From IMG/VR virus record IMGVR_UViG_3300009049_000009, positions 1 through 41,995 of that record: a stretch of 41,995 nt of DNA. One strand, 5' to 3'. Positions within the stretch are counted from its first letter, which is position 1. Every line of letters begins with the position of its first letter. A program made the translations under genes and the position numbers. The DNA is from a virus. Below are positions 6,419-15,817 of this stretch, one piece after another. The notes under the pieces were generated by a model. That model did no database searches, was not told where the DNA came from, and worked only from the letters and a program-made list of their open reading frames with translations.

Positions 6419-7183
6419 CTAAAGGTAGTCAAGCACTTGCGTGTGATCTACGTTGTCTATAAGAGTTTGTACTGCTTGCTTTTTTAGCTCTGAAACCGTG
6501 ACATAATCTCTTGCTCCTTTTATGTTTAATTTATCTGCAATTTCTTTTGCTGAGTGCTTAGGACAATCTAATCCGTAAGATAATCTTAACACCTCATATT
6601 CTTTTATGTTTAAATATTTTCGCATTAAACTTGAAAGATAAATATTTAATAAATGTATATTATAATCTTCTGACTTATCTTCAATACTATTAGCCCAAGT
6701 ATCTCCATCGATATCATCGTCGTTTGAAGCTATAGAATCAATACTTAAAAATATTGAATTAAAAAACAGGGCAACAGCTTTTTTGTCTTCAGGATTATTA
6801 CGTATTTCATTTAACTTATGCTCTGGTATTCGCATATCTCCTCTGTTCATATCTATACGCCTTCTAATAGCGCCTTTAACTCTTTTGCTTATAAACGATT
6901 TTAAAGTTTTTTCTATATCTTGAGAATCAACTAATTGAAGCCAGTCTAACCTGTCTACAGACTTAACCAATCCTTCGTTACCTATTTGTATTAGATCGTT
7001 AATACTTAATATTCCAGAAGCTTGATCACTTGTAGAAAACTTTCTAGCTAGATTCTCAACTAGTGGCATAAACTTTATTATAAGTTCATCTCTAGTGTAC
7101 TCGCTGAAGGCTTTATCTTCTGGCATGGATTTCTTAACATCATTCTTATACCTAACGTAGTTTTGTATGTTATACTTTTTCAT
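6419..7183 (-). CDS. Sigma-70-family RNA polymerase sigma factor
   Basis: This 254-aa protein matches sigma region 2 at about residues 35-112: FMPLVENLARKF, LSINDLIQIGNEGLVKSVDRLDW and FISKRVKGAIRRRID, the core-binding and -10 recognition helices. Region 4-like residues 195-250 hold EYEVLRLSYGL, SAKEIADKLNIKG and YVTVSELKKQA, a -35-binding HTH. It would redirect host RNA polymerase to phage promoters. A copy of the 35-bp motif ends 5 bp before its ATG, so it may activate its own gene. Region 1.1 is absent. Confidence 0.88.
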   Translation of the reverse strand: MKKYNIQNYVRYKNDVKKSMPEDKAFSEYTRDELIIKFMPLVENLARKFSTSDQASGILSINDLIQIGNEGLVKSVDRLDWLQLVDSQDIEKTLKSFISKRVKGAIRRRIDMNRGDMRIPEHKLNEIRNNPEDKKAVALFFNSIFLSIDSIASNDDDIDGDTWANSIEDKSEDYNIHLLNIYLSSLMRKYLNIKEYEVLRLSYGLDCPKHSAKEIADKLNIKGARDYVTVSELKKQAVQTLIDNVDHTQVLDYL

Positions 7184-7710: not shown

Positions 7711-7953
7711 TTAGTTATTATTCCAAGGGTGGTTTTTCTCTACATTATAAGTATGTTTATCTATCAATTTAGGCTCCCATCTCCCTGCATTTTTAAGAGC
7801 TAATTCTTCACTCCAAATATGTACACTTTCAAAGCGGTCATCCATTTGTACTGGCTTTCCGTTTAACTCTTGGAAAAACTCAAAGCTAACACCGTGTATA
7901 GCGCATAGCTTATCATTTTTCTTTTTTCTAAAGTATTTTATAATTTTATTCAT
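7711..7953 (-). CDS. Hypothetical protein, 80 aa
   Basis: The N-terminus is basic (MNKIIKYFRKKKNDK) and the rest is soluble, with one Cys and several His/Trp (CAIHGVSFEFFQELNGKP, HIWSEELALKN). No known motif. It contains the weakest copy of the directional repeat at 7894. It is followed upstream by a palindromic spacer. Confidence 0.6.
   Translation of the reverse strand: MNKIIKYFRKKKNDKLCAIHGVSFEFFQELNGKPVQMDDRFESVHIWSEELALKNAGRWEPKLIDKHTYNVEKNHPWNNN
7894..7902 (+). repeat. Directional repeat, 9-bp match GTGTATAGC
   Basis: The next base is G rather than A, so this is the most diverged of the ten copies counted. It lies inside the 80-aa gene. Confidence 0.4.
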
Positions 7954-7987
7954 TTTGCTTATTTATTAAGTTTATTTCTTTTTAACG

Positions 7988-8016
7988 CTACGACACCATA
8001 CACAATTCCGTTGTAG
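7988..8016. repeat. Imperfect palindrome, spacer 1
   Basis: CTACGAC at 7988-7994 pairs with GTTGTAG at 8010-8016 with one G-T wobble. GTTGTAGTGC at 8010-8019 is also the exact inverted copy of GCACTACAAC at 8171-8180, so the 45-aa gene between is bracketed by 10-bp inverted repeats. Confidence 0.6.
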
Positions 8017-8021
8017 TGCAT

Positions 8022-8159
8022 TTAGTCCTTGTTAAATACATCCTTTACATCTTCTATAAATACACCTGTCTTTTTATAATAGTTCCAGCTTGCGTGCAAC
8101 TTTCCTACTATATAACCAACTACTACACATCCTAACATTATTACTTCTAAGTTTTTCAT
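8022..8159 (-). CDS. Small single-pass membrane protein, 45 aa
   Basis: The frame starts MKNLEVIMLGCVVVGYIVGK, giving one hydrophobic segment at about 5-20, then a short cytoplasmic-type tail (YYKKTGVFIEDVKDVFNKD). It is the only gene between two perfect 10-bp inverted repeats, which gives a cassette-like look. A membrane-active or superinfection role is possible but not shown. Confidence 0.55.
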   Translation of the reverse strand: MKNLEVIMLGCVVVGYIVGKLHASWNYYKKTGVFIEDVKDVFNKD

Positions 8160-8171
8160 TGTTTAAAAACG

Positions 8172-8228
8172 CACTACAACAACGTATAAAAATAATAGCC
8201 TGTTGCAGTGTCTTATTTGTGGCTATTA
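8172..8228. repeat. Two overlapping palindromes, spacer 2
   Basis: CACTACAACA (8172-8181) pairs 9/10 with TGTTGCAGTG (8201-8210). TAATAGCC (8193-8200) pairs exactly with GGCTATTA (8221-8228). The two stems overlap and are mutually exclusive in one molecule, as in a switch or an attC-like folded site. Confidence 0.65.
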
Positions 8229-8229
8229 C

Positions 8230-8604
8230 TCACTTATCTTTAAATTCATTTAGTAAATCTTCAGATACCCCACAATGTATAGAAAACTCTTCCATTTTGT
8301 TATTAAAAAATTTAGCAAATTCATCTAAATAAATATTCATTGCTTTTAAACAATCATCTTTATCAACTATTTGAGACATAGACCCTTCTTGAATAAAAGG
8401 TTTTAAAATTTTATTTTTCATTTTAATGTGTATCTCTAAAGGTTTAGTGCATCTTCCACAAGTTCCATCCATCCTAATACCACCACTTCCTTTGCACTCA
8501 CACAACGTACCCTTCGGCACACCAACAACGTGTATAACATCATTATTTTTAAAAGTGAAAGGTTTACTATATTCTTCTTCGTTTATAAAATTTATTCCTG
8601 CCAT
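8230..8604 (-). CDS. Hypothetical protein with a Cys-rich zinc-ribbon-like segment, 124 aa
   Basis: Residues 34-52 hold CECKGSGGIRMDGTCGRC, two CxC/CxxC pairs of the kind that bind zinc and that recall a DnaJ Cys-rich knuckle. The remainder is mixed, with a C-terminal helix region (DDCLKAMNIYLDEFAKFFNNK). It could be a nucleic-acid or chaperone-type accessory, but no family is recognised. It follows a palindromic spacer. Confidence 0.65.
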   Translation of the reverse strand: MAGINFINEEEYSKPFTFKNNDVIHVVGVPKGTLCECKGSGGIRMDGTCGRCTKPLEIHIKMKNKILKPFIQEGSMSQIVDKDDCLKAMNIYLDEFAKFFNNKMEEFSIHCGVSEDLLNEFKDK

Positions 8605-8615
8605 TGTTTTATTTT

Positions 8616-8750
8616 TTAAATTAAGTTCTTAAAAGTCGTACTAGCCATAAAAACAATAAATATAAGTAATGGCTCAGGCTGCTTATCTTCTTTCGCATTT
8701 AATTCCAAAGCCTTAGCTACTCTTTGGCTACTCATATTGCCGTTACTCAT
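8616..8750 (-). CDS. Small protein with C-terminal hydrophobic segment, 44 aa
   Basis: The frame starts MSNGNMSSQRVAKALEL and ends in EPLLIFIVFMASTTFKNLI, a likely tail anchor. It lies 11 bp before the 124-aa gene and 11 bp after the 67-aa gene at 8762-8962, so the spacing fits a tight operon. Function unknown. Confidence 0.5.
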   Translation of the reverse strand: MSNGNMSSQRVAKALELNAKEDKQPEPLLIFIVFMASTTFKNLI

Positions 8751-14231: not shown

Positions 14232-14266
14232 ATATATTATCGATTTTCGATCGTATTTAGTTTGTA
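14232..14266 (-). promoter_or_regulatory. 35-bp promoter-like motif, copy 5
   Basis: Minus-strand TACAAACTAAATACGA, eight bases, TCGATAATATAT. The spacer here makes ATCG...CGAT inverted steps, as in several copies. Confidence 0.7.
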
Positions 14267-14383: not shown

Positions 14384-14448
14384 TCAATACACCTGCGTTA
14401 TCACTGGTCTTCCCTGTGCTCTATTATGAGAGTTAACAGGTGCATTGA
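14384..14448. ncRNA. Structure A, 65-nt closed stem
   Basis: The ends pair almost completely: TCAATACACCTG against CAGGTGCATTGA with one mismatch, extended by GTTA/TAAC. A CTCT/AGAG hairpin lies inside. It is tRNA-sized but lacks a TTCRA T-loop, so it is not a canonical tRNA on either strand. Confidence 0.4.
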
Positions 14449-14460
14449 TTAGTAACTAGA

Positions 14461-14560
14461 GCCAGTGGTAAGATTCGAACTTACTTCCGCTTTACAATTT
14501 AGAGTCAGCCTTACTGTTACTCAACCTGGTGAGGTGCTTCCAACCAATGGATTCACTGGC
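14461..14560 (-). ncRNA. Structure B, tRNA-like, 100 nt, non-canonical
   Basis: The minus strand has a perfect 7-bp acceptor (GCCAGTG/CACTGGC) and a perfect T-arm (GTAAG, TTCGAAT, CTTAC) directly before the 3' acceptor. A D-arm-like CTCA, CCAGGT, TGAG is present, and ACAGT can pair with ATTGT as an anticodon stem. However, about 20 extra bases follow the acceptor and about 7 sit in the anticodon loop. The anticodon cannot be assigned. It is either a decayed or expanded tRNA, or a mimic. Confidence 0.45.
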
Positions 14561-14573
14561 TAATAAAATAAGC

Positions 14574-14670
14574 TGGTGTTGTTCAGGGCACTTGAATCAG
14601 AGGTGCACACGATAAATTGCCTGTTCCTTTATTTGCTTTTGTCGACGTCTAGCCAGCAAAACAGCCACCA
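14574..14670. ncRNA. Structure C, 97-nt closed stem
   Basis: TGGTG at one end pairs with CACCA at the other, followed by an inner TGTT/AACA step. An inner GCAC/GTGC hairpin carries a TTGAATC-type loop. Not a canonical tRNA. Confidence 0.35.
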
Positions 14671-14684
14671 ACCTATTGTTAATA

Positions 14685-15146
14685 CTATAAGTTTAAACTA
14701 TCAGAAGTACCTTTTAGATAGTTTATAATAGCGGTATCATTAGAATTATCCGTTAAAATATAAGTTTCTAACGCAGACAAATAATCATAGTTTCTTTCCT
14801 CCTCAATCCACATCTTTAAGCTTGTACCAGCCGGTCTTACAAAATCTTTTAAAGCAGTGAAGGTTTTACGAGAGACTGCTTGAGTAAAAAAACTACTCAC
14901 AAACCTCAAGCGGCGTTTACTATTAAGTTCTGTAGCTACTACTCTTTGACAAGACAGTTCCATTAGTTCTTTTGCTCGTGGACTTTCACAACTCCCTGTT
15001 AACTGACCGTAAACACATTTTGACTGCGATCCGCCATTAAATTTTTTTAAGAGTCTTCCAATCTCATCGGTGGTTGCATGTAATTTGATTGCGCGTACTT
15101 CGGCTTCTACAGCTTGTAAAAACTCTGTTTTTTTAATTTGTGCCAT
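14685..15146 (-). CDS. Hypothetical protein, 153 aa, inside the RNA cluster
   Basis: Helical protein starting MAQIKKTEFLQAVEAEVRAI. Residues 38-52 hold GGSQSKCVYGQLTGSC, a Cys-Gly loop that could bind metal or form a turn. Further on it is basic (NSKRRLRFVSSFF) and ends acidic. It is the only gene between the tRNA-Gln and structures A-C, so it might act on RNA, but no family is recognised. Confidence 0.7.
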   Translation of the reverse strand: MAQIKKTEFLQAVEAEVRAIKLHATTDEIGRLLKKFNGGSQSKCVYGQLTGSCESPRAKELMELSCQRVVATELNSKRRLRFVSSFFTQAVSRKTFTALKDFVRPAGTSLKMWIEEERNYDYLSALETYILTDNSNDTAIINYLKGTSDSLNL

Positions 15147-15172
15147 AATTTCTATATTTAATTTAATTTTAG

Positions 15173-15243
15173 TTGACTCACAAGGATTCGAACCTTGAAT
15201 GACGGTACCAAAGACCGTAGTGTTACCATTACACCATGAGTCA
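15173..15243 (-). tRNA. tRNA-Gln (anticodon TTG)
   Basis: This is a canonical cloverleaf: acceptor TGACTCA/TGAGTCA (7 bp), D-arm GTG/CAC with GG in the loop, anticodon arm ACGGT, CTTTGGT, ACCGT with anticodon TTG at 15209-15211, a 4-base variable loop, T-arm CAAGG, TTCGAAT, CCTTG, and discriminator A. CCA is not encoded. It decodes CAA, likely frequent in this AT-rich genome. It is the only standard tRNA in the window. Confidence 0.93.
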
Positions 15244-15249
15244 TTTAAA

Positions 15250-15337
15250 AGATTAGATACACCTACTAAAGAAATTTCATCTTCTTTTCCCCCGGAGAGG
15301 AGTTAGTTTCATCCACGTAGGCGAATTACTCTAATCT
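15250..15337. ncRNA. Structure D, 88-nt closed stem
   Basis: AGATTAGA (15250-15257) is the exact inverse of TCTAATCT (15330-15337). An inner CCTAC/GTAGG stem and further hairpins (CTCC/GGGG) suggest a junction. No TTCRA loop. Confidence 0.4.
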
Positions 15338-15349
15338 AATCTAAATATC

Positions 15350-15421
15350 ATAGTAGCTCCCATGGAAATCTTAGGACCTCAAACCTGGGATGTAGCTATT
15401 TAAACTGGTCTTCACTACTAT
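15350..15421. ncRNA. Structure E, 72-nt closed stem
   Basis: ATAGTAG/CTACTAT closes a 72-nt segment, exactly tRNA size, with inner TCCCA/TGGGA and TAGC/GCTA pairs. A GGTTTGAGGTCC stretch on the minus strand resembles a T-arm but is in the wrong place. Confidence 0.4.
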
Positions 15422-15433
15422 AATATTAATTTT

Positions 15434-15529
15434 AAAACGTTATCAAACAACTCCCGAACATTGTCAGCGTACCAGGGACCCCGCTAGCTTAGCGTCTGGT
15501 TTACTACTTTTTACAGTTGGTAACGTTTT
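15434..15529. ncRNA. Structure F, 96-nt closed stem
   Basis: AAAACGTTA and TAACGTTTT are exact inverses and extend by CAA/TTGG-type pairs. Inside is the nested hairpin ACCAG...CTGGT around CGCTA, GCT, TAGCG. On the minus strand a GTTCGGGA loop closed by ACAAT/GTTGT resembles a T-arm. Confidence 0.4.
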
Positions 15530-15532
15530 ATT

Positions 15533-15611
15533 CCTCGCAAAGCCATGCTCCATTTACAACCTAACTACCTGTTTCGGCTAATGCAGTACTCGACACCTGC
15601 TGACTACGAGG
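15533..15611 (-). ncRNA. Structure G, 79-nt acceptor-like stem
   Basis: On the minus strand CCTCGTA pairs 7/7 (one wobble) with TGCGAGG and is followed by A, like an acceptor with discriminator. The interior does not give a standard D/anticodon/T set. It shares its 5' end with structure H. Confidence 0.4.
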
Positions 15612-15674
15612 CTCTCTGGATTCGAACCAGTTTCGTAACTAGTGAGGATTCGAACCTCATACCCGTCGGTAGTC
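15602..15674 (-). ncRNA. Structure H, 73-nt stem with two T-arm hairpins
   Basis: GACTAC/GTAGTC closes 73 nt on the minus strand. Inside are two complete T-arm-like hairpins, at 15616-15630 (CTGG, TTCGAAT, CCAG) and 15643-15659 (TGAGG, TTCGAAT, CCTCA), 12 bp apart. Two T-arms in one tRNA-sized unit point to tRNA remnants joined by deletion, or a tRNA mimic. Confidence 0.45.
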
Positions 15675-15782
15675 ATAGTCATTGTATGCTCGTGAAAACG
15701 TTTACATACTTCAGTACTAAACCTGACCTAGTTTCCAGTGTCATCGGGAATGCCCGCTTATTCACCTATTGTTATTATTCAA

Positions 15783-15817
15783 TTATATTATCGATTCGTT
15801 ATCGTGTTTAGTTTGCA
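15783..15817 (-). promoter_or_regulatory. 35-bp promoter-like motif, copy 6 (reads into the RNA cluster)
   Basis: Minus-strand TGCAAACTAAACACGA, eight bases, TCGATAATATAA. Unlike most copies there is no protein start just downstream; the structured RNAs and tRNA-Gln follow. The motif also encodes the last residues of the 64-aa gene. Confidence 0.65.

Follow-up and report, generated by a model that had tools for sequence, protein, structure and literature searches.

The 41,995-base linear virus record IMGVR_UViG_3300009049_000009 (the whole stretch of DNA analysed, hereafter the window) carries on its minus strand eight stem-closed units, A to H, arranged around one canonical tRNA-Gln and between two promoter-like motifs. 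Only H (15637–15733) and B (14460–14561) among the eight combine an acceptor stem with a T-arm of the tRNA type, and an anticodon arm is lacking in both. H is very probably, and B probably, a functional, tRNA-like RNA devoid of an anticodon. Relatives of this phage carry elements of comparable form, including matches to the tRNA-like domain (TLD) of transfer-messenger RNA (tmRNA). By analogy with these, the tRNA-like RNAs may interfere with host ribosome rescue through SmpB and EF-Tu, and through alanyl-tRNA synthetase (AlaRS) where the acceptor carries G3:U70, a functional reading that we advance tentatively.

An earlier note on this DNA had described stem-closed units around a single tRNA-Gln, most of them not tRNAs, and both parts of that description held. 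In the noncoding parts, 12 stems with at least eight Watson-Crick pairs closing 50–120 nt were counted, against 2.09 ± 1.5 in dinucleotide shuffles, where overlapping alternatives of one stem were scored separately as in the real sequence; none of 150 shuffles reached 12, and the counts in control stretches of coding sequence were 3, 4 and 7. ARAGORN and Rfam found one tRNA in the window, tRNA-Gln(TTG) (15172–15243), which has relatives in several related loci. TTCGAAT-type T-loops within a stem occur at four places, namely the tRNA-Gln, H, an orphan hairpin beside H, and B. All of these features are on the minus strand, and the cluster runs about 60 nt past the end first assigned to it (15674).

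Unit H comprises a 6-bp acceptor stem (AACTAG/CTAGTT), a D-loop (GTCAGG) and a 5-bp T-arm (TGAGG-TTCGAAT-CCTCA, 15643–15659), together with a hairpin, TACC-GACG-GGTA (15660–15671), and an inner stem-loop, GTATG-TAAACGTTTTCACGAG-CATAC (15684–15709); a 9-bp stem at 15681–15601 is an alternative closure. The family of H, named F2, numbers 52 distinct members among contigs of marine flavophages; its consensus is AACTAG-GTCAGG or GTATGG on the 5′ side and CTAC-YGACGRGTA-T-arm-CTAGTT-A on the 3′ side. Compensatory changes in relatives, a check named in the earlier note, were present. In an alignment of 16 F2 members, standard pairs filled 99.2% of cells, eight pairs were changed on both sides (3.9 after shuffling) and 29 cells held two-sided changes (7.1 after shuffling), values that none of 500 shuffles reached; the structures slid along the alignment gave 0–3 two-sided cells. 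The covarying helices are the acceptor stem, the T-arm and two others, and one element has its acceptor altered to GGATAG/CTATCC. The hairpin varies as TACC/GGTA, TACT/AGTA and TATC/GATA, and the inner stem-loop changes its stem while the apical loop TAAACGTTTTCACGAG stays nearly invariant in the aligned members. Support for the helix closing the insert is modest (4.86 against 4.36 ± 0.15 with swapped partners). Other F2 members have a wholly different insert, and one of 54 nt (L089) is nearly insert-free. As the helices of F2 covary, H is regarded as a functional RNA; its reading as a decayed tRNA was rejected on the compensatory changes.

The orphan T-arm hairpin, ACTGG-TTCGAAT-CCAGA (4 bp, 15615–15631), does lie adjacent to the T-arm of H, as the earlier note saw, but the idea that one tRNA-sized unit holds both T-arms is not supported: homologues delimit H at 15733–15637 with the first T-arm only, and none of those inspected has the orphan hairpin. 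Downstream of this hairpin, the sequence GAGCCTC can pair with GAGGTTC, the 5′ strand of the T-arm of H, so the orphan-hairpin structure and that T-arm would be mutually exclusive.

Unit B was correctly described in the earlier note as having a perfect acceptor and T-arm with extra bases. Its 7-bp acceptor, GCCAGTG/CACTGGC, extends to 8 bp with A-1:T73, its T-arm at 14484–14468 is perfect, and 76 nt separate the start of the acceptor from the T-arm, against about 49 in a tRNA. By the measure of a tRNA acceptor and T-arm, B is complete (7 bp and 5 bp), whereas H (6 bp and 5 bp) is one pair short. Neither unit was called by ARAGORN. In Rfam searches run on the whole cluster and separately on each of the two units, the tRNA-Gln was the only tRNA match, B reaching no more than 14.7 bits against tRNA-Sec (E 1.2). 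Direct assignment of either unit to tRNA or tmRNA was discarded on these permissive searches of short stretches. Pattern searches of IMG/VR returned no relatives of B, and its 3′ half (GCGGAA followed by the T-arm) resembles the F3 elements described below at E 0.68 only.

Relatives were sought through a GP88 family gene (12850–12245) located 1.5 kb downstream of the cluster, by which 80 IMG/VR loci were gathered; pattern scans for three scaffolds, F1, F3 and F2, added 71, 24 and 44 stretches, respectively. The relatives are mostly metagenome contigs whose ancestry is not independent. Many of the loci sharing the GP88 gene have, in the place equivalent to the cluster, T-arm elements that are not tRNAs, and 200 distinct elements with an acceptor and a T-arm were collected in total, true tRNAs and some chance matches among them. 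The F1 and F3 elements, together 86 distinct sequences that we call Ala-type, have no anticodon and an interior of 40–124 nt, in which a D-loop is present and a variable helix stands in place of the anticodon stem. This helix has 62 distinct sequences, and its pairing scored 5.91, against 4.44 ± 0.11 with swapped partners. ARAGORN called two of the 86 as tRNA and none as tmRNA. The trailer N73-C-T/A-A is mostly common to real tRNAs and tRNA-like elements.

A G3:U70 pair in the acceptor stem is the identity element of alanine tRNA and tmRNA, and it was found in 81 of the 86 Ala-type elements, with the neighbouring pair 4:69 varying among C-G, G-C, A-U and G-U. As the F1 and F3 pattern scans fixed the 3′ acceptor strand, and thereby U70, the pair was recounted on the loci found through the protein gene alone. 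In the non-tRNA elements of these loci, a G-U wobble occupies pair 3 in 21 of 30, against 4 of 180 for the remaining six pairs of the acceptor combined. The F3 elements, of about 80 nt, exceeded the Rfam tmRNA cut-off in every one of 17 contigs (51–69 bits, 80–83 nt each). Their match runs from one end of the model to the other but lacks the entire mRNA-like domain, and one of them (L248) begins with 21 nt, GGGGGTGATTTGGTTTTGACG, that are found unchanged in the tmRNA of a Bacteroidetes metagenome-assembled genome. F3 is the TLD of tmRNA with its mRNA-like domain deleted. The suggestion in the earlier note that the cluster encodes tRNA mimics engaging host tRNA enzymes stands as a structural class, although the molecule that the best-matching relatives resemble, the tRNA-like domain of tmRNA, was not named there.

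No full tmRNA was found in 30 records searched with the Rfam tmRNA model, and the array was not recovered from annotated phage records by DNA similarity. When the tmRNA model was run on five annotated relatives, one full-length tmRNA was detected, in Cellulophaga phage phi38:1 (NC_021796, 26803–27164, minus strand; RF00023, 87.6 bits, 362 nt), the other matches being weak and below cut-off. The phi38:1 tmRNA sits between gp040 and gp042 and overlaps the small annotated open reading frame (ORF) gp041. In the same phage (L286), a tRNA-like element with a 115-nt interior is located at about 20679 on the minus strand, directly upstream of gp030, an RtcB-like ‘tRNA splicing ligase’; it is possibly an intron-containing tRNA.

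In the explanation that we propose, a promoter would drive a single array of small structured RNAs on the minus strand. H and B in this array keep the acceptor stem, D-loop and T-arm and carry other structure in place of the anticodon arm. The elements would be excised and trimmed like tRNAs (by RNase P, RNase Z or an equivalent, with CCA addition) and may then occupy host factors by which the tRNA elbow and acceptor are recognised. SmpB and EF-Tu of trans-translation would be the likeliest of these, with AlaRS in addition for the G3:U70 relatives, and ribosome rescue would as a result be damped or diverted during infection. Several observations weigh against this proposal. G3:U70 is missing from both window units (C3-G70 in B, C-G as the third acceptor pair of H), and the tmRNA model RF00023 gave no match in the window record, searches restricted to B and to H included; the link to tmRNA therefore passes through syntenic relatives only, and interference with trans-translation by H and B would be an extrapolation from them. 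F1 scores of 28.9–40.7 bits lie below the tmRNA cut-off of 47, and archaeal control genomes likewise give a signal below cut-off. No SmpB gene was found in the 19 phages tested, so host SmpB would be required, and simple titration leaves the hypervariable inserts unexplained. As the window is a genome fragment, the absence of a G3:U70 element from it says little about the phage.

The inserts, and the units neighbouring the tRNA-like elements in relatives, are assembled from modules that recur (U1, V, S, Y and Z), noted in L107, L109, L151, L112, L125, L083 and others (locus about 7800–8700). Ten or more conserved cores turn up repeatedly in different contexts, some of them nested in tRNA-like elements: V in 25 contexts (five inside such elements), S in nine (four inside) and U1 in 8–13 (two inside), the last being free-standing in L107 and L109 and placed within the F1 element of L151. 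Modules are inserted at helix ends, and inserts are hypervariable on conserved scaffolds, unlike even between close relatives. It is conceivable, if doubtful, that a conserved tRNA-like handle (acceptor, D-loop and T-arm, at least partly derived from host tmRNA) bears interchangeable nested payloads and loads them onto the ribosome-rescue or tRNA machinery; such payloads would be structured and diversified between close relatives.

Other explanations of the cluster were weighed against interference with ribosome rescue. Processing punctuation, in which the tRNA-like tops would be RNase P and RNase Z substrates that cut a long transcript, leave the mRNAs downstream with a short, clean 5′ leader and have no trans-acting role, is rather unlikely. 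Units that abut on one strand between promoters accord with it, as do an ATG within 40 nt downstream of 68 of the 86 Ala-type elements (at 16–23 nt in many) and the position of the tRNA-Gln about 26 nt upstream of a 153-aa ORF. The ATG enrichment is nevertheless modest, about half being expected by chance in such AT-rich sequence by a rough estimate; B is followed by unit A and not by an ORF, and punctuation explains neither selection for G3:U70 at a single pair nor the D-loop and the nearly invariant apical loop of H. It is improbable that the RNAs are decoys for tRNA-directed host defences, such as anticodon nucleases and tRNA-sensing toxins, or for RNA-binding defence proteins of another kind. 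An arms race would produce variable inserts, and the hypervariable inserts differing among close relatives on conserved scaffolds, like the modules shared between tRNA-like elements and free-standing sites, fit that view, but the part recognised by anticodon nucleases is exactly what the elements lack, and G3:U70 and the tmRNA match would go unexplained.

Equally improbable is a modular structured RNA of the large ornate kind, with the tRNA elbow as one building block among others. The recurrence of cores in several contexts, some nested, speaks for it, and most window units have no T-arm. The T-arm elements, however, end like tRNAs, window units A and C–G have no homologue among the relatives or among the recurrent modules, and no GOLLD, ROOL or other Rfam family was matched. 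GOLLD and ROOL RNAs often lie near tRNAs; their Rfam models gave no match in the window or in the relatives searched. A decayed tRNA array, also raised in the earlier note, would agree with the one intact tRNA-Gln left, with tRNA sets that differ from genome to genome in this lineage, and with the orphan second T-arm near H as a possible remnant. It is nonetheless very improbable given the compensatory changes in F2, the intact top halves of dozens of distinct relatives that have no anticodon arm, and the conservation of G3:U70. Hairpins acting at the DNA level, as recombination or packaging sites with a chance likeness to tRNA, would account for inserts that move between scaffolds at helix ends; they are hardly credible, as a G-U wobble is kept at a specific place, helices accept G-U, and T-loop and D-loop sequences are present.

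The remaining units of the cluster are A (14384–14448, closed by 13 bp), C (14567–14677, 12 bp), D (15250–15342, 9 bp), E (15344–15427, 14 bp), F (15433–15530, 10 bp) and G (15533–15611, 8 bp, no T-arm), all on the minus strand; none of them has a convincing relative in about 280 loci. Whole-unit folding energy is clearly unusual for A (z −4.15) and moderately so for D (−2.14) and B (−1.82), with H at −1.22, and unremarkable for F (−0.95), G (−0.56), E (−0.39) and C (+0.38, a weak unit), so that C, E, F and G are defined by their closing stems alone. The 153-aa ORF inside the cluster (14685–15146, minus strand) has no recognised domain; it matches nothing in PHROG or Pfam, and no relative of it was found in IMG/VR. 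The earlier note has a promoter-like copy reading into the cluster; the promoter-like motif GATAATATA lies upstream of the cluster at 15784–15792 on the same strand. This motif has 11 copies in the window (1.2 expected), all on the minus strand (4702, 7189, 11228, 11554, 12864, 14233, 15784, 17216, 18703, 19465 and 19892) and standing before gene groups, with the next copy downstream of the cluster at 14233–14241. Given these copies and a weak sigma-70 region 2 match in the protein encoded at 7183–6419, GATAATATA is plausibly a phage-specific promoter.

The cluster sits within a minus-strand gene block of a flavophage-like podovirus. Its large terminase is 64% identical to that of a Manatee Spring podovirus and about 45% identical to those of Flavobacterium elemo phages, followed by phages of Cellulophaga, Tenacibaculum and Maribacter, and the window also encodes GroEL. 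The hosts of these phages are probably Bacteroidota. Elsewhere in the relatives, another family of tRNA-like elements (AGTCGTA..AACGACT and similar; interior of 51–54 nt) was observed at L088 3248–3326, L101 4476–4554 and L121 5842–5923.

According to two reports (PMC4131195; PMC11915505), mycobacteriophage DS6A encodes a TLD-only tmRNA, and molecules of this type inhibit tmRNA strongly irrespective of charging, perhaps through titration of SmpB. The option in the earlier note that the cluster represents a new RNA class is therefore only partly right. Compared by description, the DS6A molecule is like F3 in being phage-borne and having no mRNA-like domain, whereas the flavophage elements have several scaffold families, many-unit arrays, hypervariable nested inserts and probably different hosts, and H and B differ further in having no alanine identity pair and in failing the tmRNA model. 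F1 and F3 share the G3:U70 acceptor, D-loop, T-arm and helix 2 with full-length phage tmRNAs (the two-piece tmRNA of Melnitz, PMC9004378, and that of phi38:1), but these are about 360 nt long, whereas the flavophage elements are about 70–150 nt and have neither a tag reading frame nor pseudoknots. The CDS-less (coding-sequence-less) tmRNAs of Mallomonadaceae plastids (PMC11915505) are likewise cut down to about the TLD; they are organellar and about 65 bp, and variable inserts are not described in the accessible part of that source. Canonical phage tRNA clusters share with the array the T-arm, the acceptor, a similar 3′ trailer and one real tRNA-Gln, but H, B, F1, F2 and F3 have no anticodon arm. 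GOLLD and ROOL (PMC12286853) are, as here, phage-associated structured noncoding regions; in contrast, the array has no Rfam match and its units are short and separable.

In the literature found, TLD-only tmRNA is known from one mycobacteriophage and a few plastids. The same design, accompanied by broader relatives that have no alanine signal, is now seen in many marine flavophage contigs, and what is new is its scale, the several scaffolds, the hypervariable nested inserts and the conserved G3:U70. Such elements escape annotation, as the tRNA gene finder calls two of 86. This occurrence, with the alanine identity pair kept and inserts that change fast, suggests that phage RNA targets ribosome rescue or, more generally, the factors by which tRNA is recognised.
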